Part shown: one piece after another, positions 15,001 through 56,700 of the stretch
Layout of the letters: each line of letters begins with the position of its first letter
Position numbering within the stretch: the stretch's first letter is position 1
DNA from: Strix aluco
Taxonomy: Eukaryota > Chordata > Aves > Strigiformes > Strigidae
NCBI RefSeq assembly: GCF_031877795.1
Contig: NC_133948.1
Coordinates: 12,570,948 to 12,634,947, forward strand
DNA length: 64,000 bases
Reading direction: 5' to 3'
The notes under the pieces: model-generated
The model's input: the letters and a program-made list of their open reading frames with translations, nothing else
Databases searched by the model: none
What the model was told of the DNA's origin: nothing
Position numbers and translations under genes: made by a program

Positions 15001-18000
15001 CTGAGGTAGCGGAAAGGGGATGAAAGTTTTTCTAAGGAAGTTGGAGGAAGGCAGAATGACTATTCGTTTCTCTTTTGTAGGTGGTGGTTCATTTTTCTCA
15101 GCCAGTTTGAACTGGGGTCAAATTTAGTGTTCAAGAGCTAAGTGGAAAAATTCTGGTCCTACAGGAAAATCTTTTGTGGTTCCTTCACACAGCTTGGACC
15201 GTAGGCCAGAGAGCGCTGTGGATTTGTGTAGTTTCATCCAGGAAACTGTGCTGACTCAGATCTTCGAGGCAGTTGCAGTGTCTCTGAGCCTGCATGCTGC
15301 GTTGATGATCCCATGCCCTGTGGGTCTGGTTAAGATTAGGTTACCTTCCTGCCAACTCGGTGATGTGAGCCTGTTGCATCAAAGATGACAAGAGGTGGAT
15401 CTGAGATGCTTACTCAAGGAATGGGGCTGTGATTCCCAGGGACTGCTGGTGTCAAGGGGCAAACTGGTCAGCTGGTTTCCTACAGAGTGTCTCTGTGCCC
15501 TTGAAAGCCTTGCTGCTGGGTTACATGGGAACTAGCTGACCCCTCGTGATGCTGGCACTCCAGCACCCTCACCGTGCTGACAAATACACCATTGCTGAGG
15601 TTACAGGGCAGGTCTGACTTCCAGTGAAATGCTTGTGTTAATTTGAAAGGAAGCGGTGTGGTCAGTTCCAGGAAGGATCTTGCAGTGACCTTTATGGTTT
15701 TCCAGCACACGTACAAATAGCCCTCTTGCCCCTCAGAGGGATCTGATGGAAGGTCTGAGCTCACGTGATGGCTTCTGTTGGGTTTTTGTAGCATACAGAG
15801 TTGGCTCATCTTCAAAGTTTTATGATCAGGAGTAGTCTCGGTGAAAAGCTAACTCTAAGCTCAGTGGCACAAATGAGATAGCACCAGTAGGTACATAATA
15901 TATGCAGCCCGACTGGTTGAGCCCTATTGCGATTCTGAGGCTGCAAAGCCAAAATAAAATGTCGGTGTAGGCTCAGGTGGAAGTGGCTGGTAGTGGTGAG
16001 GGATGTCTGCAGAATGTAAGAGCATTTCAGTTTGTGCGCTCTGCTGATTGCTCCCTTTTCAGGCTGAAGTTTTTCTGGTCTGCATCCGAGATGCAGATTA
16101 ATTATGGGAATCAGACAGGAGGATGGCTGATTAATTTCAATAATGGCCGGATGGGGCTGGATTTTACAGTTTGTGTCCTGACCTGAGTTTTGGAGGTGAA
16201 AGTACAGTATTTCCTATTTAAAGCAGAAGTTTTATTTGCTTACTTAGACAAGGGATAAATTCTGGCATTGGTCTCTTTAAAACATTTTCTAAAAGCTGCA
16301 TAAGTCATAGAGTGGCTGGAACTATGCTTACAAGAAATGTAACTAGTTTATCTAAAAAAAACAGACAACACAGCAAACTTTTACTGGATTAAGTAAGCTG
16401 AATTAGTTCAGAAAGTGTCTGGTGATCAGCAGGGCGAGTTCCAGGAACAGTGTGGGTTTGCATGCTGGGGAAGGAGGGGATCGCTGGGCCCTTCCCTTAC
16501 ACTGGCAGCGTGTGGTGGTGTCAGCTCTGCTGAAACTACAGCCAGAGCACTCGAAGGGTTTGCATTTCATCCCTGAATGTGCAGTGAGTAGTCACTGAAA
16601 ATGCAAAATGCTTTTAAAACAGGCTGTATTTGTAGACTCTTTTGCAACCCTATGCTTGGGGTGGTAATAGCACATGTTGGTTGTGACCAGTTAGCTGGCC
16701 ACAAGCTCTGGAATAAAGTCTTCAGCTCAGGTCTCAGTGGTTGGAACGGGAAGCCACAATCATTGTTGCAGCTGATCTTGTAGACCACATCTCACAGTGC
16801 AGAGTCTTGTCTTTGTTTAGACATTTGCTGATAGTGGTCAGAGCTGGGTGCATGGACTGCTGTACTGGGGAAAGCTAACTGGTTTGGCTGTCTGTATTCA
16901 AGTTATGGCATAGATAGGACTGATGGTGGCTGCCATCACGTGATTTCAAAAGCAGTTCTGTCTGTCATGGGAAGAATTCTTGTTTGGTTTGTCTCTGCAG
17001 TCTGGTGTAGCTAGGCAGAACAACTACTAGGTGGTTGCCTTTGCTGTTAAGCTTTTCTGAAGCACCCACACAACTTTGTAAATCAGTGCTGTAAATGCAT
17101 AGTCTTGCTTATTCTAAGGGGCAGTATTGGTTTCAAAGAACAGAGAAGCTTCAAGGATTTAATGGGTATTGTCTTCTATCAGAGTTCACCATACCACATA
17201 CTCATTCTAGTCTGGACATTCTTTTTAATAAGCAGTGACACAAGGCATGACTTGCACCAATACTTTGATAATGAGAAAGCGCAAGGCTTCAAATAATCAT
17301 CAGTCACTGGAATACATTAAAGAAATAGCTGAGTGATTTTTTTGACAGTGTCATCTGAACTTCCTTTAGGCAGGTCTAGACAATGTGAAGTAAAAATACC
17401 AGTTGCTGCTCTGTGCTGGTACTCCAGCAGTTGTCTGGCAAATGACTTCTCTTTTGTGCCTTGAATTTTCCTGTACCTTAAATAACAATCTGTCTCTGCT
17501 TCACAAGAGAGCTGAGAGTTGTTGTGTGTTCTGTGTTCTAACCACCTTCTCAACCTACTGGTTAAGTTTTGGAAAACTTGTAAATGTCTCCTTCTCAAAA
17601 TGTTTTAGAAAATAAGCCAAGCTGTTTTACATGCTTTCTATGTATGTGAACCAGAGAACTTCAGGATTTTAAGAGCATCTAATTGCACTTTGAATTTTTA
17701 AGATCTCATTTTGAATGTAGTCTTTGTATTTTATTGCTTTTGTAGTCTCTGATCTTTTTGCATTTAAAAACATCGATTAGAATATAATGCCTTAAGAACC
17801 TTTTATTAAATTTCTTTTACCTGGAAGTCAATGCCTGCATTCACCTGTTTGCTCTTGGTTTTCCTATTTCTGATAATGCTTTTCCATTCTGTTGAGAAAA
17901 GTCACAACTGCTGTTAAAAAGGGAATTCCTGTCATCAGTGTTGCTCTTTGGGGCTCCCCACCCCTTCCAGACTCAAAACTCGAGGGCTGTGAGAAGCCCT

Positions 18001-21000
18001 GCAGCAAGGCTCCAACAAGTCTTTTTGATGCAGCTCTTCTAGGGCATTGAAAATGTTTCATTTGAAAGGCTATTTAATAGGATAAATATACCCAAGCTCC
18101 CCATTCCTCTGCAGTTACTCACAATGTAAAACTGTCTTGCCAGGGATTGGGTTACTGCCCTGAGCTGTCTCCCTGTATGTGAGCTGGTGTTGCATCTACT
18201 CCTGGAGGTGGGGGAGAGAAGATTTACTTGAACCTAATGAGATTTTTAAAGTTTGGATTCGGGGATTTTACAGAGAGGCTGCTTAGATGAGTCTGGAAGC
18301 TCAAGGTTCAGTTCCGGAGGTGCCTTTCCCCTCGTTCTTCTAAGGGACAGCAAAAATCAAGGATTTGAATTCACCACCTTACAGGTATTAAGTAAAAAGG
18401 GCTGGAGAATGGAGTGTCATTCTGCAAATGAGGGGTCTGCAATTTGTCTTATGCCAAGTGAGACACGATTATCATGTAAAGTCCATGTCCTCATTTAGAC
18501 CTGCCCTTACGGCTATCTTGCTTTTTATTTCCATTTGCCAGTCCTCTGGGAATCTTCTGCTGCCTAAGCCAGGAAAACCTGTAGCAGTTCTAGTTATTTG
18601 GGTAAACAGGGGCCTGGGGAAGAACAGGGGAGGTGCAGACACCTGTTCCCTGCAGCTGCGTTAGAGGAAATACTGTAGTTTGTGCTCAGACATCTCATCC
18701 TGATGAGCCAGCGTGCTGTGTCCGGGCTGTCAGGGACATGTGGCAGTTGAGATGCTGGGGGAGATGGGACTCTGGCTGAACGCTGAAGGCGTTTGCTCTC
18801 TGTGGTGGCTGGATGAAGAATCCTGTCTCCAGTGTCACTTGCTTTCCAGATGTCCCATGCAAGAAGCAGAACTACAGGCAACGTGCGGTTTGATGGGTGC
18901 GCAGATGTGGCTTTCAGCTGTTGAAAATGAAAGGCTGATATCTGAGGCATTTGAAATATCTTGCCTCAGTTATGCTTCCACTTCCTCCCTCCAGCAGTAG
19001 ATGAGATGTAGAAGAAAATTTGACCACCATCCTTTTGATATACTTCCTATATTGATAACATTTTATTTGCTGTGTCAGCATGGGTTAACAGCTCATCCTC
19101 AGTTGTTGAGATGAACTGCATATGGAAATCTGAGGTAGTTTTCTCTCTTCTGGCACTAATGCTGTCATCTTTGAGCTGACTGAGTATGCTGCGTCTCTCT
19201 AGCCCTTGTACACACTGGAGTTATGCTGGACACTCAGTAGTAGAAGACTTCTCCTTAACAGAGGAAAGCAAATTTAGATTTTTCTAAATTGCCTCACTTG
19301 AAAAAAAAAAAAAAGATAATAATCCTAGACTGCTTATGAATAGTGGAAAACTCTTTACTGCTCGAGGGAAAATTAGCATTAAAAAGCTGCTTGATGCCAG
19401 TTGGCAAATGTGTATTTGTCGATGCCTTGTCACATAGGTTTTTCCAGAACTAGTTCATGATGTGTTCTGCTTCACCTTAATCCAGGAGCATTTCTGAGAT
19501 GCACAGAAGGCACAGGAAGAGGGGAATGAACAAAGCATGTTTTGATACATATAGGAAGATACATGTAAATATATATATTTTTTTTCTTTTTAATAACTTT
19601 ATCTAAGGGGGCTGAGTGTGGCTTGGACTTACAGAAAGGGGGTTGATGTGTGCATCAGTACAAAGGGGTCCCTGTGTCATCCATTCCTGTTCTGTACCTC
19701 AGAACTCTGTTGTGATCTCTAGGCTGGCATTACTGCTCTTTATCAGACAAACCTGGGATATGGGAAGCTGAAGAATGTGCCCCTGTGGCTGCAGACGAGG
19801 CCATTTCTGCTGGAGGGTACTGCATTTGCAGGACAGCGAGTGCTGACATGCAGGGATGGCAAAGGAGCCTGCGTCGGAGCCCCTGGAATGCATGAGCTGT
19901 TCCTCGGCCTGACAGAGGTGTGGGCTGAGGAGATAGCGCAGGAATGTGCAGTATATAACTTGGGGGATGATTATTCTTTTCAGTGCAGCTTGAATTGGTA
20001 AATGGGACTTACCCTAAGGTATTGTTCTGCTCTTTCATCTTGCTGATTTTCTTCGTAAAAGGGATTTTTTTTTTCTGAGTGGTTCAATGCATTGGACATC
20101 AGCCTGAGAGTTCTTTTCCCAAGCTCTCCAAATGACTAGCAGAACTTTGGCAGATGCTGGGAGCTACCCTGAAGCAATGCAGTTGGTATTAAGGCCCTCT
20201 CATACATATCTAATGTATATGCAGGGCTGTGTGTGGGATTTGAAGACCAGAATCCCAAGGACCTCATAGTTAATAATGAGTTTTGGCAAAAGGGAGGGAA
20301 GGGAGGGAGGGGCAAACCAATACACCTGGACCTCCAGATGTCTTGGAGTGCTTTATAGCAGTAAAGGTGTCAAACGTCATATCATTCTTTAATTGTCTCT
20401 CCTCCACAGGAAAATCTGTAGAAAACCCACTTGAGTGTGAACACAAATGTCCTCCCATATTGGGGAGGATGTGGTTTGAGTAGTTCCTGGCCTGAACGTG
20501 ATTTCAATTGAGCATGTAATTTTTGGGTTGCCCAGTGGAGGGAGGACTGCGTCCTTCTGTGTCTCTGTCTCATGTTTGCATGCAGCTTTACCGGGTGCTG
20601 GGGCGAGTTACCTGAGCCGGTGGCATGCACATGTTGAGAGGCCCTGCTGCAGTGGCAGGGAGTTGGGGTTTTATCAGCTGTGTGACTGCACCAGCACAGT
20701 GATGACAAGCAGGAGCGTCTGGGTTGGTGGTGTTCTAGCAAGTATCCCTCACTCTTCCACACCCCACTGAGCAGCATGCTGTTAATGGAGTGGAAAATAG
20801 AAATTTCTAGATTCATAGCCCATGCCTGTGGGTCGGCTGAGCCCTACTGAGTCTTTGGAAACTGGACTGTGTGATTCCACTCTATCCACTTACCTGTGAG
20901 TTGACGTTTTGTCTGTTCTTGTAGGGGTGAGAGTAGAAGGAGGGGTGATCCTGTGGAGGAGCAACGGCTTGAAGATCTAGTATAAGCCTGTCTGGTTTAC

Positions 21001-28100: not shown

Positions 28101-31100
28101 GCACGTATGTATGGATCTAAGGGTCTGAATGACTTTTCTGCTCCTCTTTCTCAAGATGAAGCCAGCAGAAGCCCATCACTGCCCAGCGTGACTGGATCTC
28201 ACTATGTTGTCCCGGAGAGCAGCAGCTCTGTGGGAGGGAAGGCTGCTCCCCCTACAAAAGAAAAGCCAAAGCGAAATGGTGCACGTGGGATCGAAGATGT
28301 GCGACCCAGTGTGGAGAGCCTGCTGGATGAGCTGGAGAGCTCTGTGCCAAGTCCAGTGTGAGTGGTGTTTTGGTGGTTGCTGACTTGGGTGGGGTGGCAC
28401 AGACTCTTGTGAGATGAGTGACTGTAGTGTAGGGACAGATGCTGCAGGAGAGTGACAGACAGAAGATGGGCTTTATCTAAAGGCTTGGAAACCAAGCAAG
28501 TGCATGAAGATGCTGGTGCTCTTTTATCTACTTGTGTATGAAAAAATACATGTCATGTTACGAGAGGTGGATTGTTCAAACTCAGATTTATAGATGATCA
28601 CAAACACCCACTGTCTGACAAAATGAATGTTTGGTCATCATCTGTTTCTTAATGGATGGTGTGTGTGTGTACACACTGATGTTAGGCTTGGCAGAGAGAC
28701 AGGGTCTGTCTGTGTTGTGGAAGCTGGGTCTGCGGGAGGGCTGGCCAGGGTGGACGCTGCTGCTGAAACTCATCATGCTGTGCTTTCCTGGGGGAGCAGT
28801 GGGACTTTCAGTCTAGGAGTGCTCTCCTAGGCTTAAATGCACTTTTTTTTTCTTTTTCTCCGCCCTGCCCCCCCCCCCCCCCCCCCCCCACCCCCAGCCC
28901 TGCAATCACTGTGAGCCAAGGTGAGGTGAGCAGCCCCCAGCGGGTCACTGCCAGTCAGCAGCAGACCCGTATATCTGCTTCTTCAGCTACACGAGAACTG
29001 GATGAGCTGATGGCATCTCTCTCTGACTTTAAGGTAACCTATCATGACAACTTAATACTTCATCTTGTCCCTCCCCACCCCCAGACTCTCTTGCCTGTTA
29101 GCCACACCTGTTGACCTTCGTTAGTCTCCAGAATGCCCTCTTTACCTCTCAAACTTGCTCTGAGAAACTTCCTGTGGTGGTATTCGTGCTGTAGGTGTTC
29201 TTGACTGCTATAAATTCTCATCGCTGGCAGAGTAAGGCAGTTACAGGATCTGTTTTTCCTTCAGTTCTGCAGTTTGTTTGCCAAAGATAATGAGCAATGT
29301 ACTGCTCAGTACAGGGTGAATTATTTTTCTGTGCTACAACTTAACAAGAAGTAAGGGAGCATGGGACACCAGTCTGCTTACTGACAGAGACCAGGCTCCT
29401 CTGTTCTGTGGGATGACCCTCCTCTTTGGAGTGTATTTTTACCCTGATTTACTTCTCCCGAGGAGGATCTTCCAGGCATGTGGTGTGAGCACTGAAGCCT
29501 TTGCATCAGACAGCTGGAGACTTCAAACGTTTCCATCTTAAAACAGTATCTCTTATTCACCTCAAAGTGGGATTAAAGTCTGAGCTTCTTGTGGGGGCAG
29601 AGGATGGCAAATACTATTCAGAATCTTGTTTGGAAATCGAACTATTGTGTTGGAAAAGAACTGCTACTTCAGTCACAAGTAGCACAAAAATCCCATAATA
29701 GGATAAGCTCAGGAGTAACTTGCCTGTGGTCACCTTCATACGTGGAGCACTTGGCATATGTACTTGGATAACTTGTTCTTTTATTCATATCTGTATGTTA
29801 TCATTCCTGCACTAAATGATTAACTGTGGAGCTTATTGTCATGAGACTTCATTTACCCATAATCATAGCAAAATGAAAAATATTTTCTCTTCTTACTTTT
29901 TCAGCTGCTTTGCTTATAGCCTTACTGAATTGTTCAGTTGAATTTGTTCTGAGAGAGGTAGAGAAAGCAAATACCTAATATATTCTCTCTGTTGTCATTG
30001 TTGGGTTTGTCTTTCTTACATACACATGCAAGTCTGCTTTCTAATCCTAAGGAAGTTCCTAACTCTGGTTTTTCCTCATATGGAAGATTCTGCTGATGCT
30101 TGGTGCTTCTTGCCTGTGCTGAACTCCATCTTCTCCTACCATGACTTTAGGTGGGGCAGCCAGAGCTGAGGAATGTTGTGTGAGGAGAGGTAGACAGGGC
30201 ATTCAGTGACAGCTTTGCCGTTTGTTGTTCTGTCTGTGCCACCGTTCATGCGAGCGCTTTTGATGTGTGCTCTGGGTTTCATGGAGGTTGTTACAATACC
30301 CAGAGTTTTGACCAAGTGTGTGAGTTCACACATTGCTGGGAATGAGCATGCACGCTCTGTGGCACTTTGCTTGCCTTGCACTTGCTGGAATTGCATTCAG
30401 TCTGCTATTTCTGGCACAAGTACTTCATTTTGTGAGAATATAGGAGTTACTCACTGTTTTCTCTAGACTTACTGTAGTGTGTGTTTAGTCAACTGCAAAT
30501 ATTGACACCTTAAGTTGCCTTTTTCCTCCATATTAGGTCCTAGGGTAGAGTGCAGGATATCCACAAGTGTCTGTTCAGTCTGGTTGAAAAAACTGTGAAG
30601 CTGGAGAAGAGTTCCCACCTGTGCTGCTGGCGTACCCTGCCTTGTTCCTTCCGCACGCTGTGGGAGCTTGAGAGCTGTCACCTAGTGCCCCTGCTGCTTT
30701 TCTCAGGGCTCAGAAAACAAGCTCGGGGTGTGGTTGCTGCCACCAGCCTTTGCTCCTAGGTGAGCTCTTGGCAGCTGAGAATGACCTTGCCCAGCACAGG
30801 TTTTCGTTGCAAAATACGGGGAGGGGACATTTCTTAGTGTGGGTGTTCAAATGCTTTGCAGTCTTGAGAAGAGTCCTAAGAATCTTTGTGCAACTCCAAT
30901 AAAACCTGCATGGCAGAGATGAGCCGCCTTCTGTAATACTGCCTGCCTTCCTGGCTTAGTTTCTGGTTAAGCTCTGAGAGCAAACTGAAATGCAGCAAGA
31001 CTAAGATTTGGCCTTTATAAATACAGCATTAGTATTTTCACGAGACATTGAACTCATCTGTGTCTAAACGTTCGTCCTGAAGCACAAAGAACATGGATTC

Positions 31101-34100
31101 TGTGATCATTTTCCTTTTGTTTATATTGTCATTGACTGTTTTTAATGGTTAGTTTACTTTTTCCTGTCCTCCAGGTTGTTTAATTTTCCCTTCAATCCTG
31201 GTTTGGTTTTACCTCCTCTGTTTGTGCCAACTAGTGGGGTTAGCTTGTCTGTAAAAATGAATTTCTAGACTGTACCAGTAGCAGGATGGAAGAGAAGTGG
31301 AGTGTTTGCAACGGTGAAAGATGAAAGGCTGTTGTTCAAGTGCCAGACCTGTGTGTGGTTGCAAGAAATAGGACAGAAAAACTGAGTATGATGTGTAACT
31401 AGTTGGAGTTGGTACAACTAGAAGTTGCATTAGGCGAGGATGCAAGGAGGCACTGATGCTTAATGTCCCTCATACTCCAGAGTAAAAGGTGCTATTACAG
31501 ACTGATACATTACCCTTTTATCATCTTCTGCTCGCTTTAATGAGTTGCTCATTCTTCTTGCTTACAGAATCCATTTGATTTTGCTTATCTAGCTCATCAG
31601 TCAGCGAGCACTGGATTACTTAATGCACTTGTTTTGTCAACCTCTGCCATTTCTGTGTAATAGGATGCCTGCTTACTGCATAGCTAGATGCTTGTATTTA
31701 ACTGTTCTATTACTGTTGAGTGTTTAACCGTTGCTCTTATTTTGGAGCTAGTATGTTTTTAATATGCTGAAAATACTTGCTTTTGAGCAAAATGATAGTC
31801 TTGCCTTGAAAATGACTGACTTCATTTTAGGCCTGGAAACTAAGTGGAAACTGGGTTACTTTTACAGGTGCGTTCTGCTTAGGCAAAATACAGGGGAAAC
31901 ACAACACTGGGAAATTCCCTCATTTGAACTACTGAATGTACTTAGTCCTTTTCATCTCTGCTGTGACTGTGGGTCTTGCTGTGCTACTCAAGGGGAGGAG
32001 CAATTCTAATAAATTGTGGTCCCTTATTGCTCCTTCCTTTCTGAGCATGGATGGTCTTCCTGTAGCTCCTGACCCCTCGGGGTGGTAGCAGCTTGAGTCA
32101 GCTGAAGGTATATGTCTCTTCCATCTTCTGGCAGATTTTGTGCATGTTCTGGTTAATTTTATCCTTTTATTCATGATAAGTATCTCAGAAAGGTAAGTAG
32201 AGACTGAGATACCATCCATGGGCTTAGGAAGTTATGTGCCCCACTACCTTAGACCATAAGCATCTAACTTCTTGAGGCTTCTTTGGAAAGTGTAACTTAA
32301 GAATCAGAGCAGGTCTTGAGAGCTCTTGGATTTGGAAATCCTTTGTGGATATGTTTATAAAACTGATAGGGCTCAGCATTGGACTTTGGTTGACTTGGTG
32401 TGTGAACTTGTCCAAGCCACTGTTCTGATTTTCCCTTTTTAAGAAAAAGGATGTCTCCTAGAGTTTAGCTAGGAACTACTGAAAATGGGGAAAGTAAGAA
32501 CCAGGATCTTTCATTTTCAGAAGATCCTGTAAGTCAAGGAGAATGAAAAACTCTATCACTTGCTCTTGTTAGAGTGTATTTTGGATCAAAATTAGTAGTG
32601 ATTTTATTACAGTGTAAATGTGGACCCTTTGGCCTAAGGGAAAGAGGCTAATCTAGCCACCTAAGCAATGCTTACAAGGGCGTGGAGTGACTGACAGACT
32701 CGAATAGATTCAGTATGTGTCACATCCAAGGTGAGATTAGTGATGTGAATAGAACAAAGCCCATGTCATCTGTTCATGCTGTGAATGCCCTGAAGCTTTG
32801 TTTTCATTGCCATGAACTCAGCCAACTGGAGCATTTTATTAGTGTATCAAGAAGAAAATGTCATGCTTTGTTCTATTCATTGATTGCTTTTTTTTTTAGC
32901 TTTGAAATGTAAAATTTACATGTCTGACTATGAGTAAGTTAACGTGACCTTTACTCACAGGCTAGACATTCCTGGGTTTGTAGCTGGCTTCCCAGCAGCT
33001 GCTGCGTGCCCCTATCACAGCTGCAGGTGAACGCATGAGCTATCACTTAGAAGGAGGGCATAAGTGAAGGATTTTGATGGCTGTAGAACTTCATCTCCCG
33101 TAATTTCCTGTGAAGATCAGCACAATGTCATACTGGTTCTGCTCTTTGATATCTCATTTTCCTTCCTTACTCTTGGAAGTAAGGCTTTGGATCAACATGG
33201 CTCTTTGATTTGGAGGTTGTGATTGCTATAATGCTTAATTCTTTGCTTTTTTCCTTCTCCTTACCTCTGTCTCTATCTCTTTCTCTCCTTATTCCTTCTG
33301 TCTCCTTTTTTGCAGACTAGTTCCACTATGTCTCTGATTTCTGAACCGTCCCTAGAACCAGTTCCCAGTTCAGCAAATGCAGCTTCCAGCAACACTCCTC
33401 ACAGCTTAACAGTGCTATCTCATTCCAAACACCCTTCTGCAGGTCACAGTGGGGACTCGGCAGTGCCAACATCTGCCCCCTCAGCAGTCCTCTGCACTGA
33501 GGCAGGCAGTAACACCGTAGTTCTGCCTTCTTCAGGGCATTCTGCCGCTCCTCCACATATGCCCTGTTTGCCACAAATGGTCCCTGTGCCCCCACCACGA
33601 TTCTCTTCTGGTTCTGCTACTCGTGGGGAGCAGATGACCTCTGCAAGCTTGGGGCCGAGCAGAAAGCCTGACCCTCCTAGAAATGTTTTCCAGGCTGTGC
33701 CAGCTTCCAGTGTGGAGCTTCTGTCTAGATCTGCTAATGTGGAGGCCCAAGGCCTAGAGAGTGGTTTGGCAAAAGAGTCTGAGAAGAAGGAGCAGAGAAC
33801 TGACTCCAAAATCTCAACTGTACCAGTTTCAAACACTTTAAATGGTCAAGGGAGGGGGCAGATACCTAAAGAGCTGGATCAGCAGGGAGCATTCAGGGAC
33901 AATTCAGCCCTTCCTTCCCAGGGCAGAAATGTGGAAACAGCTTTAGATGAGCTGTGGGCCCTGGAGCTGTCTGCACATGTGCCAGAGGTACATGCAAAGA
34001 ATGACAGCGCTTTGAATCCTGTGTATGAACCTTCTGTTGTGGCCCTGGATCGATGTCATGTCTTCCTAGACACTAAAAACCAGTTGGGCTTTGTAGTGGA

Positions 34101-37100
34101 GCAAGGACAGGATCTAAAAGCTGAAGTACCACATGAAACCAAGGTAGATGGCTGTCCTGAGCTGGTCAGGAAGAGGCAGGGCAGAGAGAGAACTCCTAGG
34201 AAGGCAGGTACTGCTAACATGAACAAAGCTGGAGGAGACCAGGAAAATGAGCAGTTCAGAAGCTCTGCAGTCGCTCCAGAATCTGCTGAAAATGTCTGGA
34301 AAGCTGAATGGGATCTGCCATGCATCTCCAAACCACCCATTGAGAGGATTTCTGCATCAGGCCAGGCAGGCACTGAATGAATGTAGGAGTAGGATGAGCA
34401 CTAGCTGGGGCTGTTCTGACAGCGCACTAACATGTTGTGTGTGGTGTGAGTGTGCCCAGACTCACCCACGCTAACAGCACGCAGCTCTGAGCAGTGTTAG
34501 CGACAGCTGCACGTCACGGCGGTTTGAAATCCTCAGCTTTATCTTGTGGTCTCTTCTGCATGTCAGTCAGCAGCACAGAACATGGCAGTCTGTAGGGAAT
34601 TCCCTGTGAAATGGACTTTTATTCCCTAACTGGGGTAAGGTTCAGTCCACAGAGGCTTCTGAAAAGTTAAAGGGCTGTTTCATGCCACCGGAGGATGTTC
34701 CTGACTTGGGCTGGCAGCTCCTCTGCTCTGCTCGCCTTTTTAGGTCTCGTTGCTGGAGCTCTTAGTGTTCCTTCCAGCGGTGGAAGTACGCTCAGTGCAC
34801 CAGACATCTCTGACCAAGAGTCTTATGCCTGTAAAGGGCAAACAGAGAGGCTGCTCTGTGTCCTTGTGATGCTGAGGTTTCTTCACAGCAACAACTCAGT
34901 GGAGTGGTCGTGCTGCACCTCCTATCTTGGCTTCCTGCTGGTTAATCTTTCCCTTCCTTTTCTAGATAGTTATTTTTGGCTGCTGTGATTATCCTTACAG
35001 GGTTTTTCCTTGCACTGACTCACTGTTCTGGGCTGTGCCAAGAAGAATTTTGGCATTGTGGAATAAATGTCATCACTCTTCCTGCTCGCAGTTGTCACTA
35101 ATGGCTTGAGTTTGTGCTGTTGCATCTTGGGGCTTGCTCTGACACTGTTCTTCTCTGCTGATACTATTACCTTTGTCATTTAGATTAAATCTTTAATCAA
35201 GAGGACAAAAGAGACTTCGAATGTGCATCCAATGTATCGTGACCTCTCTCCAAGGCGTAAACTAGGTCCTGCCATATTTCACAAGACCAAGTCCCAAGAT
35301 CGCTTGATTGAAGAGCTGCAGGACAGACTGGGCATCGCTAAACAGGAACAAGAAGAGTGGAAAAGCCAGGATGACTGGCTGACAGAGGGGGTCATTATCA
35401 CTGTCAGACCCCAGGGGGAAGAGCAGAATGGTGGACAGCAAGTAGAGAAGGTAGAAAGCAGGGACACCTGCTGGGAAGTTCCAGCATGTCCCTCTGTCCA
35501 GATAGCATTTAGTGGAGGTGCAGATTAAGTTTCTGAGTGTCCTAAGCAACACAAAATGAAGAACTAAGTCTTTCTACTCACCCTTGTCTGGCCTGAAAAG
35601 GGAACCAGCATGCAGGTCCTAGTTCTTGTTGTTTAAGAACTGGAGTGGGATCTGAGGGTGCTGGTGATGGTATCCGTTTGGGCGGTCTATTACTATCACG
35701 TGTCAAGTGTCCATGTGGGGATTATTTTTAAAACCACACTGGAAAGTCTGTCATAGAGGTTTGTTTTGTTTTTCCCAGTACTGTACCTGTGCAGGAAGTT
35801 CTGGGTATAAGATGGTGCTTTTCCTTGAGCTACACAGAGAAGTTTTCTAGTTCCCTTCTCTTTCTTGCTGCTTTTTCCCCTCAGATAAACATACTGGTAA
35901 CAACCAGCCTTCCTGTTGCAGGAAGTGCTTGTTGGTTCCTCTTTGGGTTTATTCACCTTTCTTCTTCCTCCGTGTCTTTCTAGGTGGTTTTTCCTCCAGA
36001 ATCCCCGCTTCCCCCAAGGAGGACGATCTCTGTTCCAGCCTCTCCCCCGCTCCAGCCTTCCAAAGAAGCTGCAAAGACAGTCCCTGCTAACGTTGCTCCC
36101 TCTCATGCCTCTGGCTCTGCACCTCTCCTCCCACTCCTACCTCAGGCTTCCCATGTGCCATCTACCCCAGCTCCTAGTCCAGTCTCCTCTTCCTTCACCT
36201 TGGCTCCCCAGCCTCTCTTCCAGTGGGAAACTTCTGATGATGATTATCATGAGCTTTCTGTTGTGGGCACCCCTCCTTCTGAAGATCCTAGGCGTTCGTG
36301 TTCTCCCCAGACGTGGACCCTTAGCACCAAGTCAGTTGTTTCTGTTGGCTGTCAGACTGAAGATGATGCTCTCTTCCCACAGATGCAGGCAGGCTTCTCT
36401 CTCTGGTTTATTTTTTTAGCAGTGTTTTCCAGTCCAACTATCGCTCCCAGCTTGATAGCTCAGTAGGTGCAATGTTCAGGTAAAGACTGTTCTGAACTGC
36501 TAGAGAGGAGAGAGGACTCATTGGCAATATCTAATCCCAGCAGTGCCTGTCCAGCACTGCAAAGTACGTGTCTGTGCAATAACCTGCTGGGGTGTGTGTG
36601 GTTCCTGTCTGTCCTTATGATCACTTTGTGCAGCAGGGACTTTATTTCCCTCTGAGATGAAGAAGGTAGCTCTGAAACACAGACTGCAACTCTCCCTGCC
36701 ACAATCTCTCATGGAGTGGGGGGAGTAAAAGATGGCAAAATCTCAGTACTGGAAGGAGCAGATCAGCAGCCCTTCATGTGTTTGCACGTTCAGACAGGTG
36801 TCCACGGTGCGAGTGGGTTTTGGGGAGGAGATGGTATGATCAAGAGCTGTTCAGCATGTCCCATCAGGGAAGGGCTGTAGCTTCAGGATGATGGGAAATC
36901 TTAATGTCTATGAGCAGTGCAGTGGTGTGCAGTGTTATGTGTACAGGCAGCTCTCAAGCAGTGAGCAAGGAACCACCTCTACATCTTGAACTGTTGTACT
37001 TTTCAGGTGACCTCTGCTCCTCCCCTCGTCCGCAGTGCCAATCTGCTGGCTGCTCATGCACCCCTGGGCCCCCCCACCCCTGAGAAGGCAGGACCTCCTT

Positions 37101-40100
37101 TCTGTTTGCTCAGCATGGTGTGCTCTGCTGGTTGATGAGTGTGCTGCAGACGATGCTGGGATCTGCTCGAGAGCTCCCAGCACCATTAATGTAGATGATA
37201 CCCTGTAGCGCATGGTTTGCTGCTCGTAGAGCTCCTAGCTGAACTAGACTGATGGCACACCTCAGGGGTGAAAGGTGGGAATTTGAAGGGCCTTTGCATG
37301 ATGAATTGATGTGGATGCTGTGCTGAATGTCCCCTGTAAGCAGCAGGCATTGTGTGCAGGAGATGGAAACAAACCTCTTTCAGGTGGGGACTCATCTGTG
37401 AGCTGTCGAGGAGGCTGGCTCGCCAGGCCAGGTACCAAGTACAGCAGGCGCAGGTGGTTGTGCCTGCACTGAGGTCAGCTGTGGCTTGCAGGAGCCTGTG
37501 GTCCCTACAGGCAAGGGTGAAGTGCTCTTTGCTACGTGTTGAATTCATCTCACCTCCTTTCTCTCCAGATGGTATTTATCATTTGTGTGCGACATTTGTG
37601 CCTGCCCTGCCTGGTGGCTGCAAACCCCTTGGTAGAGCGAGAGAGGGATATGCTTCCCTTGACACAGGGATATGCTTCCCTTGACACAGGGATATGCTTC
37701 CCTTGACACGGTCCAGCCCTTTTCCTCCTGCTGTGCCACGCGGGAAGCCCTGGCTTTGTCCGGGGACTCTGGCCTGGGTTTTTGTACAGAGGCCTGCTGC
37801 CTCCCGCTGCGAGAACTCTCCTTGCAGTCGTGTGCTTTGGAGACATTCACTGTAACCCTTTGGTAGCAAATAACTGCTGTGTGGCAGGGGGTTTGTTTTA
37901 GGCTCAGAACGTTGGGGTGTGATGGCTCTGCTGTGTGCTGCTGGACTAGGAGAGGTTGTGAGTTATGGGATGGCAGGGAGGAGGGGAAAAGCTGTGTGTT
38001 AGACTTCATTGGGAGTCATGCTGCATGCGACGTAAAGCTGAGGAGTATGTGTGTATATGTGTGTGTAAAAAAAGCTTAAATTATGTCATGAGAATTTTTG
38101 TAGAAACAGGTAGAAACCAGAGTTTGTCATTGAGTGAAGACTACAAGTACAGGACAGGGAATAGAGCTCCTCCTGCGGCTGGAAGGGCAGGTTCTGTCAA
38201 GGCTCTGAAGCCTCTGAATTGTGTCCCTACTCCCCTGGCTGTGCCAGCAGCAGGCTGGTGGGTTGTTCACAAGCATAGATTTTATGTCTGTTTTAATCTA
38301 TCCTCTTAGTAAAAGAAAATGTGCTCCAGACCAACATCTCAGGGAGGGACTTTTCTGGGTCTCTCTAAACCTGACAGTAGCTATTGCAGTGCAATGTCAG
38401 CTACAATAATCTGCATTTCATTATTGTGGTTTGTCTGCAAAGGGGGCTTTGATGGCCAAAGAGAACATACACTTTGTTTATAAGTTCTGAACCTAAGTAA
38501 AATATTTTTCCCCCTCCTCTGGGAAGCCTTTCCAAGCCATGTGTACTGTGGTGCTGTGAGTTTCAGAAACAGCCTCTGAGACAACTATCTTAATCCCTTC
38601 CCCTCCACCCCTGTGCATTTCCAGCTGTCCGACAATAGACGTGGCAGTCTTTGCGTTGCAGTCCTCTCTGCTAGGGCTCTGCTGTGGATGCACTGCCCTC
38701 TCTGTAGGTAAACAGCAGGCAGCTCCAAGAGAGTTACTTCCTTCCTGCTTCCACTTGCTTAGCTCAGGCGTGGGGTGAGAGCCACCTGATGGGGGCAAAG
38801 GAGACTTGGCAAAAAGATCTGCAGAAGGTGGTGCAGAGGGAGGCTAAGGAAGAAGATATTCTAGCTGAAAGGGAGGTAAGAGGAGGAGGAGGAGAGGGAT
38901 TTCTGTCAGAGAGGAGAAAGTGACAACAGAGAGAGAGCAACAGCATAGAAATAGAGGTCAAGGAGAAGGGGCCCTCTGGATGGTGTCTCTGCTTTGTCAG
39001 CTGGCCAGGAACTGATAAAATAAAAGGAGATTTTTGGCAGAGGTTTAGAGAGCGCTGTACTGACTACTTGGGATCTGCTGGTGACTTCTGCTGTGTGCCC
39101 AGTGTAGGAAAATCAAATCCTTGGTTCACAGCTCTGCTGTTACACATCCCAGGCTCTCTGCATGGCTCTGCATGGGCAGAATACATGTGTGTACTTGACC
39201 CTGGCTCTCACAGGCTTCTGCTGTCTCCTAGCAATCTCCTGTCTGTCTCTACAGAGGAGCCACTGGCAGCAACAGCAGGCATTTATCTTGGAAGCACAGC
39301 AGCACTTGCCTTACAGTCTTTGTTTTCTCTTCCCTGCAGTTCATGGCGCAGGGGAAGGCTGGGAGCAGCTCCCCTCCATCCACAGCCTCCAAGCCTGGCA
39401 GTCAGCTGGACACCATGCTGGGAAGTCTCCAGTCTGACCTGAACAAACTGGGTGTCGCTACCGTTGCCAAAGGTGTCTGTGGAGCCTGCAAGAAGCCTAT
39501 TGCTGGGCAGGTGAGTTGAAGGTGCTGTCTCATTGCTGAGTCTTGGGCTGCAGCTGGGAGTAATGGGGAGGGCTGTTTCGTGAGGCTGAAGAGACTGGAG
39601 ATGCTGGAGAAACTGAAGTACTGTATTTATCCACTGGCTAGGTACGCTGTAAGCTCCTCCAGTGACCTCTACCCTGCCCTTGAGGGACTGCCCTCTCCTG
39701 AGATGATAGGTAATTCAGTTTTCATGCTACCCCAGTCCAGGGCTCACTTGAGTAGTAGAACTTGTCATTCTTGCTGACCTCCAGCTGGTATCTTGTCATG
39801 TGGTCTAGGGGAGAGGGAGATAAGAGTTGTCCTTCATAATTTGTCTTCCCAACAGGTAGTTACAGCCATGGGGAAAACCTGGCACCCTGAGCACTTCGTC
39901 TGCACCCACTGCCAGGAGGAGATCGGGTCGCGGAACTTCTTTGAACGGGATGGTCAACCCTACTGCGAGAAAGACTATCACAACCTCTTCTCCCCTCGCT
40001 GCTACTACTGCAATGGGCCGATCCTTGATGTGAGTTCCTTGGGGGGATTAAGGGTGCTGGCAAGGTGCTGCAGACTTGGATGTTAAAAACTCCACTTTAC

Positions 40101-47350: not shown

Positions 47351-50327
<2,977 letters not shown>

Positions 50328-50768: not shown

Positions 50769-53700
50769 GTGAGTGCGGGACGGGCCCGCGGCGCGGCGGC
50801 CGGGTGGCGGCGGCGGGACGGGGGGAGTCGCCCGAGGCCGCGTCCGCGCCCGCTCCCGCTCCGCTGCGCTCCCTCCGCCCATCTGCGCGGCCCGGCCCGG
50901 CCCGGCCCGGCGCCCGCGGCCGGCCGGGGACGTGGCAGCCGGCCCGGGCGCGTCCCGGGGCGGGAAGGCCGCGCCGGCGCTGCCCGCTGGAGCCGTCCGC
51001 AGGGAGGCCGCAGCGGCGCCGTGCGCCGGCCCGCGGGACGGTGAAAAGGGCGCCCCGCTGCCGGCCTTTGGGCAGCGTGGAGGCGGCCGGAGAGCCGGGG
51101 CTGAGCCGCCGCTCCCCGAGCGGCTGCCGGGGGCGGCTGCGGCCCGGAGGGGAGCGAGGGACGGCGGCTGCCGCGCTCCAGAGGGTGCCGCCCGCTCCCG
51201 ACGTGAGTTCCCGATAAACGACCGGCACAAGCTGCGTCCGTCCCGGCTGCCGGCCCTGCGCCGGGCTCGGCGGGCCCGCGGCGCTCCCCGCGGGGGGCTG
51301 CGGCCGCCCCCGCGGCTGCCGGGAGCCCCGTTCAGAGAGGGAGAGCCCGGGCGCTGTCCCGGTTCCGGGCTGCCTGGGGCCGCCTGTTACACCCTGATGG
51401 CTTTTTTCTCCAGCTTGGTGCGTTAGGTTGGGATGTTCCCAAGACAAATCCCAGCCTTCCTAGGATCAAGTCCTAACTAGTACAAACGTTGTGTTTGTTC
51501 TCTGTATCTGTTTGCCGAGGCGGTAACGCGTGTAACGCGTGTGCGTGTACATCCTAATAAAAAGAAAAATCAAATGGGTGAAATCTGCCCCAGCAGCTCT
51601 TCTGTGGAGACTGGGGAGTCGTAGTTTGTGCCGTTTGTGTAAGTTGCTAAGCTGCTGGGGAAGTCCTGTAGTGTTTGTTATACATCATTTATATTTTTAA
51701 TTTCTAGACTGTTGGGATAATTTAAACGTGTTTTTCATGTCCGTACGTCTCCCTGCTTGTGATTAAGCAGCATGAGTAGGTGCAGCCTGGTTTCAGTTTG
51801 CATATGATGAACTCACGTGTAATTGAAGAGTCTGAAAGAAGATGAGCTCTTTAATGGCGGCTTGTTCTGTCAGTTCTGAGGGGTAGAACATCGATTGTCC
51901 TCCGCAGGTCGACCTGTGCCTGCGCGTTCAGAGGAGCAGCACCACTTTCAGCCGGTTTTTAGGGAGAGCTCCGGGTGTGGGTGCTCACAGGGTGGGGGGG
52001 GTGTGGACAGCCTCTCTGAATCCCAGGTAGCCGCGGCTCAGGATTACCCTTCCTGCCTGTCAGCAAAAAAGCTTCACTGAAAGCAGCTCTTGAGAAGGAT
52101 GGAGGCAGCTGCCATTTCTCCATTGCCAGGTTTCCTGTGGCAAAACTGATAGAATTTTGCCTGAGGAGGGAAGGAACAGTTTTGACGAGTTTCTAAAGGC
52201 ATGCTTGTTTGCTGCCCTTCCTAAAGATAATGGTTATTATTATTAAGATATAAAGTTGCACAGTTTAAGACTGAGTTTTAAAAGCCTTTCCTGGAGAGTT
52301 GGCTTTTGGTTTATGTAAATGCAGAAAACCTGCAAGCATAGACCTGGCTGAGCCCTGTTCAGCCCACACCCGGTCTTTTATCTTGCATATCTTGAAAAAC
52401 TTGGAAGTTCATGGAAGTGGTTTCAGTAGTTCGAGGAGCTGGTTGCTGAGAACTTCAACTTCTTTCTCGTCTTTCCAGCATATCTCACTGTCTCGATGCC
52501 ACTTGAAAACTGAAACAGACTATTTATAGGAGTTAAGCTCAGTGAGGGGTCTTAGTCCCTTCCCACTGGCAGATCCAGGCACACAGTAACGCAGGCATGA
52601 AAAAGATGAGTGTATGATGTGATTTTTTTTTTGTTTTACTTGTGTAACCTTGGTTGCTACTGATAGTGCATGGAAGGAGTTTGATAGCGAGGCACAAGCT
52701 TTTGTAATCTGGTGAGTCCAATTTCCAAAATCCCTATGACATGGGTGTTAATTCTGGAAAAAGAATAAATGCAAGTGGTTTGTTCTTTTGCTGGGCCTGA
52801 GTAGAGAATTTTCTCAACTACTGACAGCCTGAAACCACAGATCAGTTTTTCAGGCCGGGCAGTTACAGCCAGCCCTGGGTCCTCTGCAGTTAGAAGTCCC
52901 CTTTGGGGGGGTGTGGGCTTTAGGATATAACATACGCTGAAAAGCACCTTTGCATTCTTGAAGTGCTTTTATTTTTTGCTTTTAAAGATCCTTTACTCTA
53001 GGCTAATGATCTTACCTCTCACTCTGTCTTACTTTTAGGGGGTATCTTACAGAGCATAAGTGCTAGTTACCAGGTTAACGAACAAAGCAGTCATCCTTCA
53101 GCTGAAGGGGAAGGTTTCTGAGTTTCATCGTGTATCACGTACAGTGACCCTTTCCCCAGCCGGTAAATCCGCGGGTGCTCACATTTGGTCACTAAGAGGT
53201 TGTGTGGCAGCAGGTGACGTGTTTTGCTTGCCGTGGTTTTGTGTTCTGTGTGTTGATATCAAAGGCAGTCTGATGTTTTTTCCTCTGTGTGTGGTTTTAG
53301 ATTTCTGATACACTGAAGCGGTTTGCAGTAAAAGTAACTACAGCCAGCGTGAAGGAACGGAGAGAGATCCTCAGTGAGCTGGGAAAATGCATTTCTGGGA
53401 AAGGTAAAAGCTTTGGGACACTGTTCTGGTTAGCAGGGTGGAGAAGAATGTTAAAATGTTTTGTTTCAAAGGCTGCATGAAACTTGAGGGGTGGGTTTTT
53501 GAGGGAGGGGGCTGGCAGCGTTTGGAGTCCTGCTTTCTCACAGTGTTAATTCTAAGCATGGGTTTTGTAGGTAACACAGAACTCTGGTTACTAGCATGTG
53601 TGCTTTTTCCAGTTTGTACTTGTAGCATCATACATATAAGTTTTTCATGAGTGTATCAGTTGCTTGTTTCTCTCCTGACTCTTAGCCTGTTTTTTTAATG

Positions 53701-56700
53701 ATTCATGGAATATTTGTATACACACATATATGTGTGTAGAGAGAGGGAGAGTATGGAAGATTTCAGATAGTCTTAATAAAATGAAGCAAATTTTAAAAGA
53801 TCTTTTTTATTTGTCTCATTTTCTGAAGATGACTGTGGAATAGCATGTGTTCCAATTTTGCCACTATTTTAAAAAATATGGACAAAATGTATAAAAAGAA
53901 CTTTTACTATGCTTCTTGCAGGCAATATCATAGATGTGAGCAGTTCACCGATTTCAGTTGTGAAGTGAATCATGTTTGTGTTAAAGATTAAGAGCTCATT
54001 GATTTGTGAAGAAATATTTTGAAATACATTTTGTTACAGATCTTCCAGAGGGTGCAGTGAAAGGCCTTTGCAAACTCTTCTGCCTTACTCTGCATCGATA
54101 CCGGTGAGTAAATTGATGTGGAAAGGCTGTACTATTTAATCTATCAGTATTTACATATTTAATAGTTAAACTGGTATGGGGCATCTGGAGATGATAGCAC
54201 GCAGTGTCACATAGATGCGCCTGACACTGAAAGATGCTGTCTAGTAATTAGGCTCTCAGGTTTGTCATTAAAAAGTTTTACCACACATATCTTGCATTTC
54301 ACCTTGAATTTTGAAATTAAAACTTTTATCCTGTGGTTCAGTTTGTAAGAATAAATGTCCTTTGCTTGTGAAGCGAGAATCAGGTGTCTTTTAGATGCTT
54401 TTAGATTGAATTAAATCGTGGCCTGTTGTAGAGAAGCTGTTCAGAACCGATGTTTTCTTCTGCAACCTGCTGGAGAGCCTCGACATAACTTCTGTCAGCT
54501 GAGGAAGGGAATGGAGCTTTCTGCCAGAAACTCCTCTACTTCTTGGAACAGCAGAAATAAAATAACTTAGCTTGACTGCCGAAATGAGAAAGCAGAGCCC
54601 TTTGTGTGATGCAAGTGTAGTAATATGTGTAATGTTGGCAGGATTTATAAAGTTCACGGAGATACATTTTTCATTCTAGCGATGCAGCATCCCGCAGAGC
54701 CCTGCAGCTGGCGCTTCAGCAGCTCGCAGAATCCCAGCCAGATGCAACAGCAAAAAATCTTCTGCAGTCACTTCAGTCTTCAGGGATCGGCGGCAAGGCT
54801 GGAGTTCCCAGGTGCTGGATGAGTTGCTTTGTGTGGAAGCAGTTCTGAGTTGCTGGTGGTTGCTCTTGTGTCTGGAATGATTCTGTTGCTGCTTGCCAGA
54901 GGTGTTAAAAACATTTAGAGACAAAGCTGTTAATGGCCATTCAGTTGTTCCTCTTACCTCTTTCATGTCTTCTGGGAAAGCAGAAGGACGATTGTGGTGG
55001 TGGATTGGGTCTGAGTTAGGCTTTTGCCTTTGTTAACCGTGAGGTCTGAAGACATGAGAAACAAACTCTTATCAAGAAACAGTCTCTAAAATGATTAGGA
55101 AAGGGGATTTCCTTGCCCATCTGGTGTTCAGCTGGTGGAACTTAAGACCTTATTATCGACAGGGAGATAATGGAAGTTGAAGCTGATGCAGGGCACAGAG
55201 TAGTGTCCTGCAGTGCCTCCACGGCTGAGTAGAAGTGTAGCTTTTCGAAAAATATCTGATGTTGGTTTAAAGGCTTGCAGTGATACAGTATTTACCCTTC
55301 AGTCGCAGTGGCTGGCCTTGTGTGCAAGGACACTTTCTACTTTTTTTCACTTTGAGGTAGAGATCAAAATGGGGTGATGATCCTCAGGGAGCTGCGAGGT
55401 GGGATCTGTTACCTGAATTGGAGGGAGGAGGTGAGAGTTAGCAGAAACCAGAGCTGAGTAGTGTGCCAGGACGGAATGTAAGCTGAGAAATGATTTGGCA
55501 GTCTAAGGCTGGGAAGCTCTGACAGTAAAGATGAACAGCAGATGAGACATCTTGAGTCACTTTTTGGACACTCTCAGTTGGCAAAGTATTTAACTCTCAT
55601 TTCTGTAATGCCACTGGGAAGATCCAAAAATGGTCTGTCTTCTGCTAGGGTTTTTCATTCCCAGCAGGGTTTTTAATTCCCAAGATTCAGCCTCTTTTGT
55701 GCCATTCAGAAGTTCTAAGTGTTAAACAGGAGTTGGAACACATAGCTTATGAGGAGTAATTATTTCCTTTAAATGCTAAGACTTCAGCTGTATTTTTCTG
55801 TGATAAAATTGCCTTGTTTATAAGGTGGTGTTCTGACTTGGGCAAAGATGAGTCTGTTATGGACTAATAGGTGTAAGTTACATACTGGGAGCTGTAGATT
55901 TACCTCCTTCTCCCGTTTGTACAACAGTAAGAGCAGTGGATCTGCAGCTCTGCTGGCACTCTCCTGGACATGCCTGCTTGTACGCACAGTCTTTCCAACA
56001 CCTGACAAGAGACAGGGAGAAACATGGAAAAAACTGGTAGGTTCTTTTTGGTTTGCAGAAATACCCCTTTGGAAATAAGGACTTAAATATTTCTAATGTC
56101 TTTTAAGTTTCTGAAACATTGCAGATAATTCTGAACGTAACTGATCATGTTGTGTTAAAATCCAGGTTTACATGACAATCTTTTTTGCTTTCTGGTGTAT
56201 TTTGATCTCTCCTATTTCACTGGAGAAAGCAGGAGGTGTATAAAGGATGGCAGTGGGGCAGTCTTGCAGCTGTGCAGAGTTGCTGTGCATACTGTGGTGT
56301 GTACCAGTGTTTCTAGACTAGGTGTGCTAGTGGTGCCTCCAAGGTGCAGTCTGCAGCGTGGCATGAATTCCTTGTGCCTCCCTTGAAGTATTTGCATGTG
56401 ATATTCTGTCATACAGTGTCAAGAAGCTTTTTGCTTTCTTTTCACCTACTTTAACAACCTGAACCTGTGACCATGCTCTTAGCACCTTGGAATATAGTTG
56501 GAACACATTTTAAGAAGAGATGTAATCTGCTATGAATTGCTGTTTTCAAAGTCAGAGTTTCCAAAACTGTTATGCATGGTTCTTCAAAGTGGTGTGTGTG
56601 AGGTGGAAGGAATGGCAGCTTGTTGGAAGATCTTACACAACCTAAGGTCATTTTCCTAAGCAGATTCAGCTAATCAGTGGCATCTGACATGTCTTGTTTG

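Follow-up and report, generated by a model that had tools for sequence, protein, structure and literature searches.

Paxillin, a central adaptor in cell adhesions, has mostly been studied as its shorter form. Some predicted mammalian PXN variants are long, and two human isoforms, paxillin beta and gamma, were reportedly described by Mazaki in 1997 and 1998. Here we analysed the paxillin gene of the owl Strix aluco in a window of 64,000 nucleotides (assembly GCF_031877795.1, contig NC_133948.1, positions 12,570,948 to 12,634,947 of the forward strand; coordinates below are counted from the first nucleotide of this window). We describe five open blocks, candidate optional coding exons, in the intron that separates exon 6 with the LD4 motif from exon 7 with LD5.

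The closest described system is pxnb-ins of zebrafish, in which three alternatively spliced exons add 625 residues between LD4 and LD5 of paxillin-b (PMC5091871). Its transcript was detected by reverse transcription polymerase chain reaction at multiple stages, and in later embryos a faint protein band appeared at 130 kDa, as predicted. Regions partly homologous to pxnb-ins were found in gar, coelacanth and elephant shark, and the authors concluded in 2016 that the region had been lost in tetrapods (PMC5091871). The human PXN gene has at least 20 exons; exon 15 gives rise to beta, and use of an alternative splice site in exon 16 yields gamma, with inserts of 34 and 48 residues, respectively, downstream of LD4 that are reported to alter the binding of paxillin to vinculin and FAK. 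At least 26 further human variants had been predicted by 2017, and the legend of the published gene map includes white-box exons (PMC5316197). UniProt A0A1B0GTU4 is entered as paxillin in one proteomics table (PMC11283412). Our searches of the open literature returned no paper on a tetrapod insert, PMC5091871 being the only paper found on an insert between LD4 and LD5 of paxillin; the excerpts of PMC12583701, PMC10156590, PMC11431473 and PMC13066811 hold nothing on the exons described here.

Five phase-0 blocks between the LD4 and LD5 exons

Results of our analysis suggest that the LD4–LD5 intron probably holds optional coding exons, of which blocks 1, 2 and 3 would be the avian counterpart of pxnb-ins and block 5 a further short cassette. 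The five blocks (Table 1) had been picked out in an earlier note on this DNA as acceptor-led and in phase 0, and this description was confirmed: all are open between 29033 and 39340, each is led by AG, and all lengths are divisible by 3, with a total of 637 codons. Blocks 1 to 3 together comprise 574 codons, with every acceptor in phase 0 and two of the three ends at AG/GC (the slash marks the exon border). The frame of block 1 runs past its proposed end to an in-frame TGA at 34378..34380 on the plus strand, downstream of which an AATAAA lies at 35062. Some of these exons are presumably listed already in public avian annotations.

The surrounding gene is clearly placed. Exon 2 matches the Pfam Paxillin model with an expectation value (E) of 1.7e-40, the first four residues of the query being assumed, and the end of the PF03535 model coincides with the last codon of exon 6. 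Both LIM exons that were tested match the LIM model of Pfam, while exon 7 searched alone gave no Pfam match. By motif pattern, LD2 lies at 27721, LD3 at 28311, LD4 at 28998 in exon 6 and LD5 at 39406 in exon 7, so that all blocks fall between LD4 and LD5, in an intron of 10.3 kilobases (kb).

Table 1. Exons, open blocks and LD-like stretches of the LD4–LD5 region. Splice-site scores are from a human-type matrix; open run is the length of the open frame.
Feature	Position	Strand	Codons	Open run (codons)	Acceptor	Donor or end	Characteristics	Assessment
Exon 6	28898..29033	+			12.8	AAG/gtaacc, 7.8	carries LD4; Pfam PF03535 Paxillin E=6.1e-22; ends in phase 0	constitutive
Block 1	33316-34365	+	350	354	13.9	CAG/gcaggc, 2.9	Ser/Pro-rich	probable long cassette exon, end uncertain
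LD-like stretch in block 1	33931..33966	+					VETALDEL 9.4, resembles VESLLDEL of LD3; overlapping register LDELWALE 8.7	candidate
Block 2	35184-35450	+	89	114	6.7	AAG/gtagaa, 5.3		probable cassette exon
LD-like stretch in block 2	35295..35318	+					QDRLIEEL, matrix score 8.9	candidate
Block 3	35984-36388	+	135	160	11.7	CAG/gcaggc, 2.9	Pro/Ser-rich	probable cassette exon
Block 4	37007-37087	+	27	42	5.7	AAG/gcagga, 2.5		doubtful exon
Block 5	38768-38875	+	36	51	9.1	GAG/gtaaga, 10.3	strongest donor of the five	plausible cassette
Exon 7	39340..39510	+			12.2	11.9	carries LD5; LD pattern at 39406; acceptor in phase 0	constitutive

Compared with zebrafish pxnb-ins, blocks 1 to 3 share the place between LD4 and LD5 and, if their proposed ends hold, the number of three exons, and their 574 residues are close in number to the 625 of the fish. 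The bird gene would differ in having up to two extra short exons and GC donor ends. From place, size, exon number and phase we infer that blocks 1 to 3 are homologous to the fish insert. The human inserts are also located downstream of LD4 (PMC5316197), in agreement with the earlier note, which had placed beta and gamma at this very site; they are much shorter than blocks 1 to 3. Block 5 lies in the place of the beta exon: human beta has one inserted exon (15) before exon 16, and block 5, with 36 vs. 34 residues, is by its sequence features likewise a short phase-0 cassette just 5′ of the LD5 exon. A counterpart of human gamma, which is made from an alternative site of exon 16, was not seen: exon 7 of the bird has no strong acceptor in frame that would lengthen it. 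The stretch 39232-39339 is open, and of its acceptors just those at 39232 (4.7) and 39295 (-1.8) are in frame; a further one at 39255 is out of frame. This last acceptor-like site, 85 bases 5′ of exon 7, scores 12.1 vs. 12.2 for the constitutive acceptor; splicing to it would put the LIM domains out of frame. The earlier note had held that the set may be undescribed. The kind of insert is not new: it is known from fish (PMC5091871), and at least 26 further human variants were predicted (PMC5316197). Its retention in a tetrapod would contradict the conclusion of PMC5091871.

Coding potential of the blocks

To judge the open runs by length, we simulated 300 introns of 10.3 kb with a third-order model of the window's non-coding DNA and recorded the open runs that follow acceptor-like sites. 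The longest simulated run had 227 codons and none of at least 250 ever occurred, vs. the 354 codons of block 1. The number expected per intron was 0.013 for runs of at least 160 codons (block 3), 0.17 for at least 114 (block 2) and 4.6 for at least 51, the run of block 5, which is thus unremarkable by length. Block 4 did not appear on the list of the simulation script because its acceptor fails the pyrimidine filter. The longest control runs in real sequence were of 104 codons on the plus and 107 on the minus strand in 1000-20000, and of 59 and 62 codons in 51500-57000.

Base composition by codon position was strongly periodic in the two longest blocks: the chi-square (chi2) value was 58.7 for block 1, with 0 of 5192 non-coding windows as high, and 36.9 for block 3, with 0 of 5781. 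The null fractions of the other blocks in this period-3 test were 0.039 (block 2), 0.012 (block 5) and 0.064 (block 4), and those of two intron controls 0.95 and 0.16. Since the constitutive exons 6 and 7 do not reach significance either (0.31 and 0.13), the test is underpowered for short exons.

A position-composition model was then trained on the first half of block 1 together with block 3. On the held-out middle of block 1, read in the right frame, no null window scored as high. The expected frame was the best of the three for blocks 2 (null fraction 0.069), 4 (0.015) and 5 (0.014), as it was for the constitutive exons 6 (0.015) and 7 (0.12). A codon table compiled from up to 58 pieces of kinase and LIM exons (7754 codons, identical pieces counted once) gave null fractions of 0.0018 for block 2, 0.025 for block 4 and 0.020 for block 5; among the controls exon 7 gave 0.016 and a LIM exon 0.0000, but exon 6 only 0.12. 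When synonymous codon choice alone was counted, the values were 0.096, 0.018 and 0.21 for blocks 2, 4 and 5, respectively.

Taken together, blocks 1 to 3 are with high probability coding, blocks 1 and 3 by open length and periodicity and block 2 by codon use; block 5 is probably so, and block 4 is weakly supported as a coding exon. The claim of the earlier note that all five are coding cassette exons is therefore well supported for blocks 1 to 3, plausible for block 5 and weak for block 4.

Splice sites of the blocks

GT follows only two of the five proposed block ends, those of blocks 2 and 5, and the remaining three end in AG/GC. The earlier note had proposed ends that keep the phase, as they do; it made no mention that blocks 1, 3 and 4 carry GC instead of GT. 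GC donors are rare and enriched in alternatively spliced genes (PMC2490688). Among human protein-coding junctions, 0.8% belong to GC-AG introns, and it is uncommon for a protein-coding gene to contain more than two of them in one transcript (PMC7242645). In six non-coding stretches, GC sites scoring at least 2.4 occurred at 0 to 0.70 per kb, vs. 1.89 per kb in the frame of block 1; with such frequencies, one GC site of this strength could be due to chance.

Other sites compete with the proposed ones. Block 1 contains phase-0 GT donors at 33987, 34143 (score 6.5) and 34164, and block 4 has an alternative phase-0 GT donor at 37117; no phase-0 GT donor scoring at least 5 was found in the frame of block 3. 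Strong in-frame acceptors lie inside block 1 (33922, 11.3) and inside block 3 (36146, 12.4, higher than the 11.7 of the block's own acceptor), so that the block starts are not beyond doubt. A scan of the intron for phase-0 blocks with passing sites returned 31 acceptor-donor pairs, including three unrelated short blocks (29265-29315, 32961-33026 and 35795-35896), which indicates that short blocks with passable sites arise without other support. The earlier note had proposed that any combination of blocks could be used. The phase is indeed 0 throughout, yet three of the five ends lack GT, donors compete, acceptors lie inside the blocks and block 1 may end at a TGA. Exact block ends and free combination are thus unproven, since blocks 1, 3 and 4 end in AG/GC.

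LD-like stretches within the proposed insert

To examine the blocks for LD motifs, we built a scoring matrix on eight LD motifs that occur in this genome; these score 8.1-14.0 when each is left out of it. Two stretches, in blocks 1 and 2 (Table 1), resemble the consensus LDXLLXXL. The block 2 stretch has Gln for the first Leu, and in that of block 1 one of the hydrophobic positions is occupied by Ala or Glu, depending on the register. VETALDEL and QDRLIEEL also carry the D/E-L at +6/+7 that marks the inverse LD class (PMC7703752). In structured exons, 0 of 7507 positions scored at least 8.9; in non-coding frames, 1 of 38,299 did.

Other results speak against reading these stretches as LD motifs. 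Shuffling within the blocks gave fractions of 0.03 for block 1 and 0.013 for block 2, with five blocks tested. VETALDEL falls from 9.4 to 4.3 when LD3 is taken out of the matrix (LDELWALE changes from 8.7 to 9.5), and QDRLIEEL from 8.9 to 6.2 without the LD2-type motifs. QDRLIEEL is the sole match to a loose LD pattern between exons 6 and 7, a pattern that was widened after this stretch had been seen and that gave two further, chance matches, at 23142 and 23358.

Searches for relatives and paralogues

In searches of the whole genome, blocks 2, 3 and 5 as protein and block 1 as DNA matched significantly only this locus; block 3 gave four other matches, all non-significant (E 4.2-9.7). A processed copy of a long transcript, which would prove splicing, was not seen among the best candidates scored with block 1 DNA. 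Pfam gave nothing credible for any of the five blocks. For block 2 a Phage_terminase match (E=0.0023, 18 bits, below the cut-off of 22) was rejected as implausible. Against sequences of PDB, blocks 1, 3 and 5 had no match at E up to 1, and block 2 had three at E 1-1.7.

A Hic-5-like gene on contig C120, a name we take from its motifs, has LIM domains and motifs that resemble LD2, LD4 and LD5. Only about 85 bases of intron lie between its LD4 and LD5 exons, and therefore it has no such insert. This compact Hic-5/TGFB1I1-like gene lies on the minus strand of the 110-kb contig at C120:66000-75999. Table 1 of PMC5091871 gives no TGFB1I1 in chicken or flycatcher; as a TGFB1I1-like gene is present here, the reported avian absence may be an assembly gap.

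Further observations concern the locus itself. The polypyrimidine tract at the acceptor of the LD4 exon consists mostly of a long poly-C run at 28867-28897, directly 5′ of the exon. Between blocks 4 and 5, a 22-base unit of the intron is repeated in three perfect tandem copies at 37644-37709. RBFOX-type TGCATG sites were not clearly enriched (7 sites, 0.68 per kb vs. 0.52 elsewhere), and a search of 24000-44500 against Rfam gave no match. The frames 48982-50327 and 57548-57880, 3′ of paxillin, may correspond to RPLP0 and GCN1, which they resemble. In tetrapods paxillin is adjoined by gcn1l1 (PMC5091871).

A proposed optional insert and its alternatives

With phase 0 both at the end of exon 6 and at the start of exon 7, the blocks could be skipped or included without change to the LIM domains. 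We propose that with all blocks skipped the common paxillin would be made, and with blocks included a protein of about 1,130-1,195 residues with the same LIM domains. Blocks 1, 2 and 3 would encode a long, presumably mostly disordered insert that lengthens the linker between LD4 and LD5, and block 5 would be a short cassette at the position of the human beta exon. One or two added LD-like helices may dock proteins such as FAK, vinculin or parvin. Skipping would be the default and inclusion would depend on tissue-specific helpers, because the sites of exons 6 and 7 are good (donor 7.8 and acceptor 12.2) and the AG/GC donors of blocks 1 and 3 are weak. In this scheme we infer that the insert is transcribed, and likewise its exact exon ends, its disorder and its function.

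Several observations weigh against this proposal. Three of the five block ends lack a GT donor and their AG/GC sites are also off consensus at +4 and +6, whereas GC donors usually compensate by a closer match to the remaining consensus (PMC2490688). The minus strand of the same intron contains an acceptor-led open run of 131 codons; the 114 codons of block 2 are therefore not exceptional by length alone. The position model learned its pattern from portions of blocks 1 and 3 and does not recognise a real LIM exon (0.98, with another frame preferred); it thus responds only to this type of composition. The codon table does not separate blocks 1 (0.37) and 3 (0.59) from non-coding sequence. Searches of prokaryote and viral collections gave no relatives of block 2, a result of little weight for vertebrates.

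The likeliest alternative differs from our proposal, which it overlaps, in one exon end only. Block 1 would be a shorter cassette that ends at a phase-0 GT (34143, or 33987/34164), with the open tail to 34365 a product of chance. These GT donors outscore the GC site, and the tail by itself gives a period-3 chi2 of only 10.8 (null fraction 0.098, not significant). Yet the position model shows that the held-out tail 34144-34365 keeps the codon-position pattern of block 1, with a score of 5.1 in frame vs. -12.5 and -23.6 in the others and a null fraction of 0.0028, and we consider the shorter form rather unlikely.

Less probable still is that block 1 serves, or serves also, as an alternative last exon. 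It would be read as far as the TGA at 34378, polyadenylation would follow close to the AATAAA at 35062, and blocks 2, 3 and 5 would be used separately or not. Its product would be a LIM-less paxillin consisting of LD1-LD4 and a tail of 354 residues. Such an exon would fit the lack of a GT donor near the end of block 1, the TGA 12 bases past the proposed end and the AATAAA. However, blocks 2 and 3, next in order after block 1, likewise have the appearance of phase-0 coding sequence, and in fish the insert between LD4 and LD5 runs on through three exons (PMC5091871).

We give slightly less credit to the view that an ancestral insert, formerly coding, survives in birds only as relics that are spliced no longer. 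The three blocks with non-GT ends and the loss in tetrapods stated in PMC5091871 agree with it. However, 574 stop-free codons over three blocks are not expected without selection when more than 300 million years have passed since the split from fish, and the acceptors remain.

That all blocks are chance open frames is very improbable: blocks 4 and 5, and nearly block 2, are within chance by length, and other short phase-0 candidates exist, but block 1 exceeds all simulated runs, a run as long as block 3 is expected in only 0.013 cases per intron, and no null window is as periodic as either of the two.

Our preferred explanation thus remains an optional insert encoded by blocks 1 to 3, with block 5 as a further cassette. 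Since human paxillin with the beta or gamma insert is reported to differ in its binding of vinculin and FAK, an effect would also be expected of a much longer insert at this site. More tentatively, and with considerable doubt, birds, and so tetrapods, may have kept the ancient insert, and its two LD-like stretches may act as docking helices in a seven-LD paxillin, with inclusion gated by unusually weak GC donors on two or three neighbouring exons. Expression of the insert in birds would mean that the loss in tetrapods stated in PMC5091871 is wrong and that a paxillin of roughly doubled size has been overlooked in a classic model class. Through the extra LD-like sites, other partners would then be joined to the same LIM anchor.

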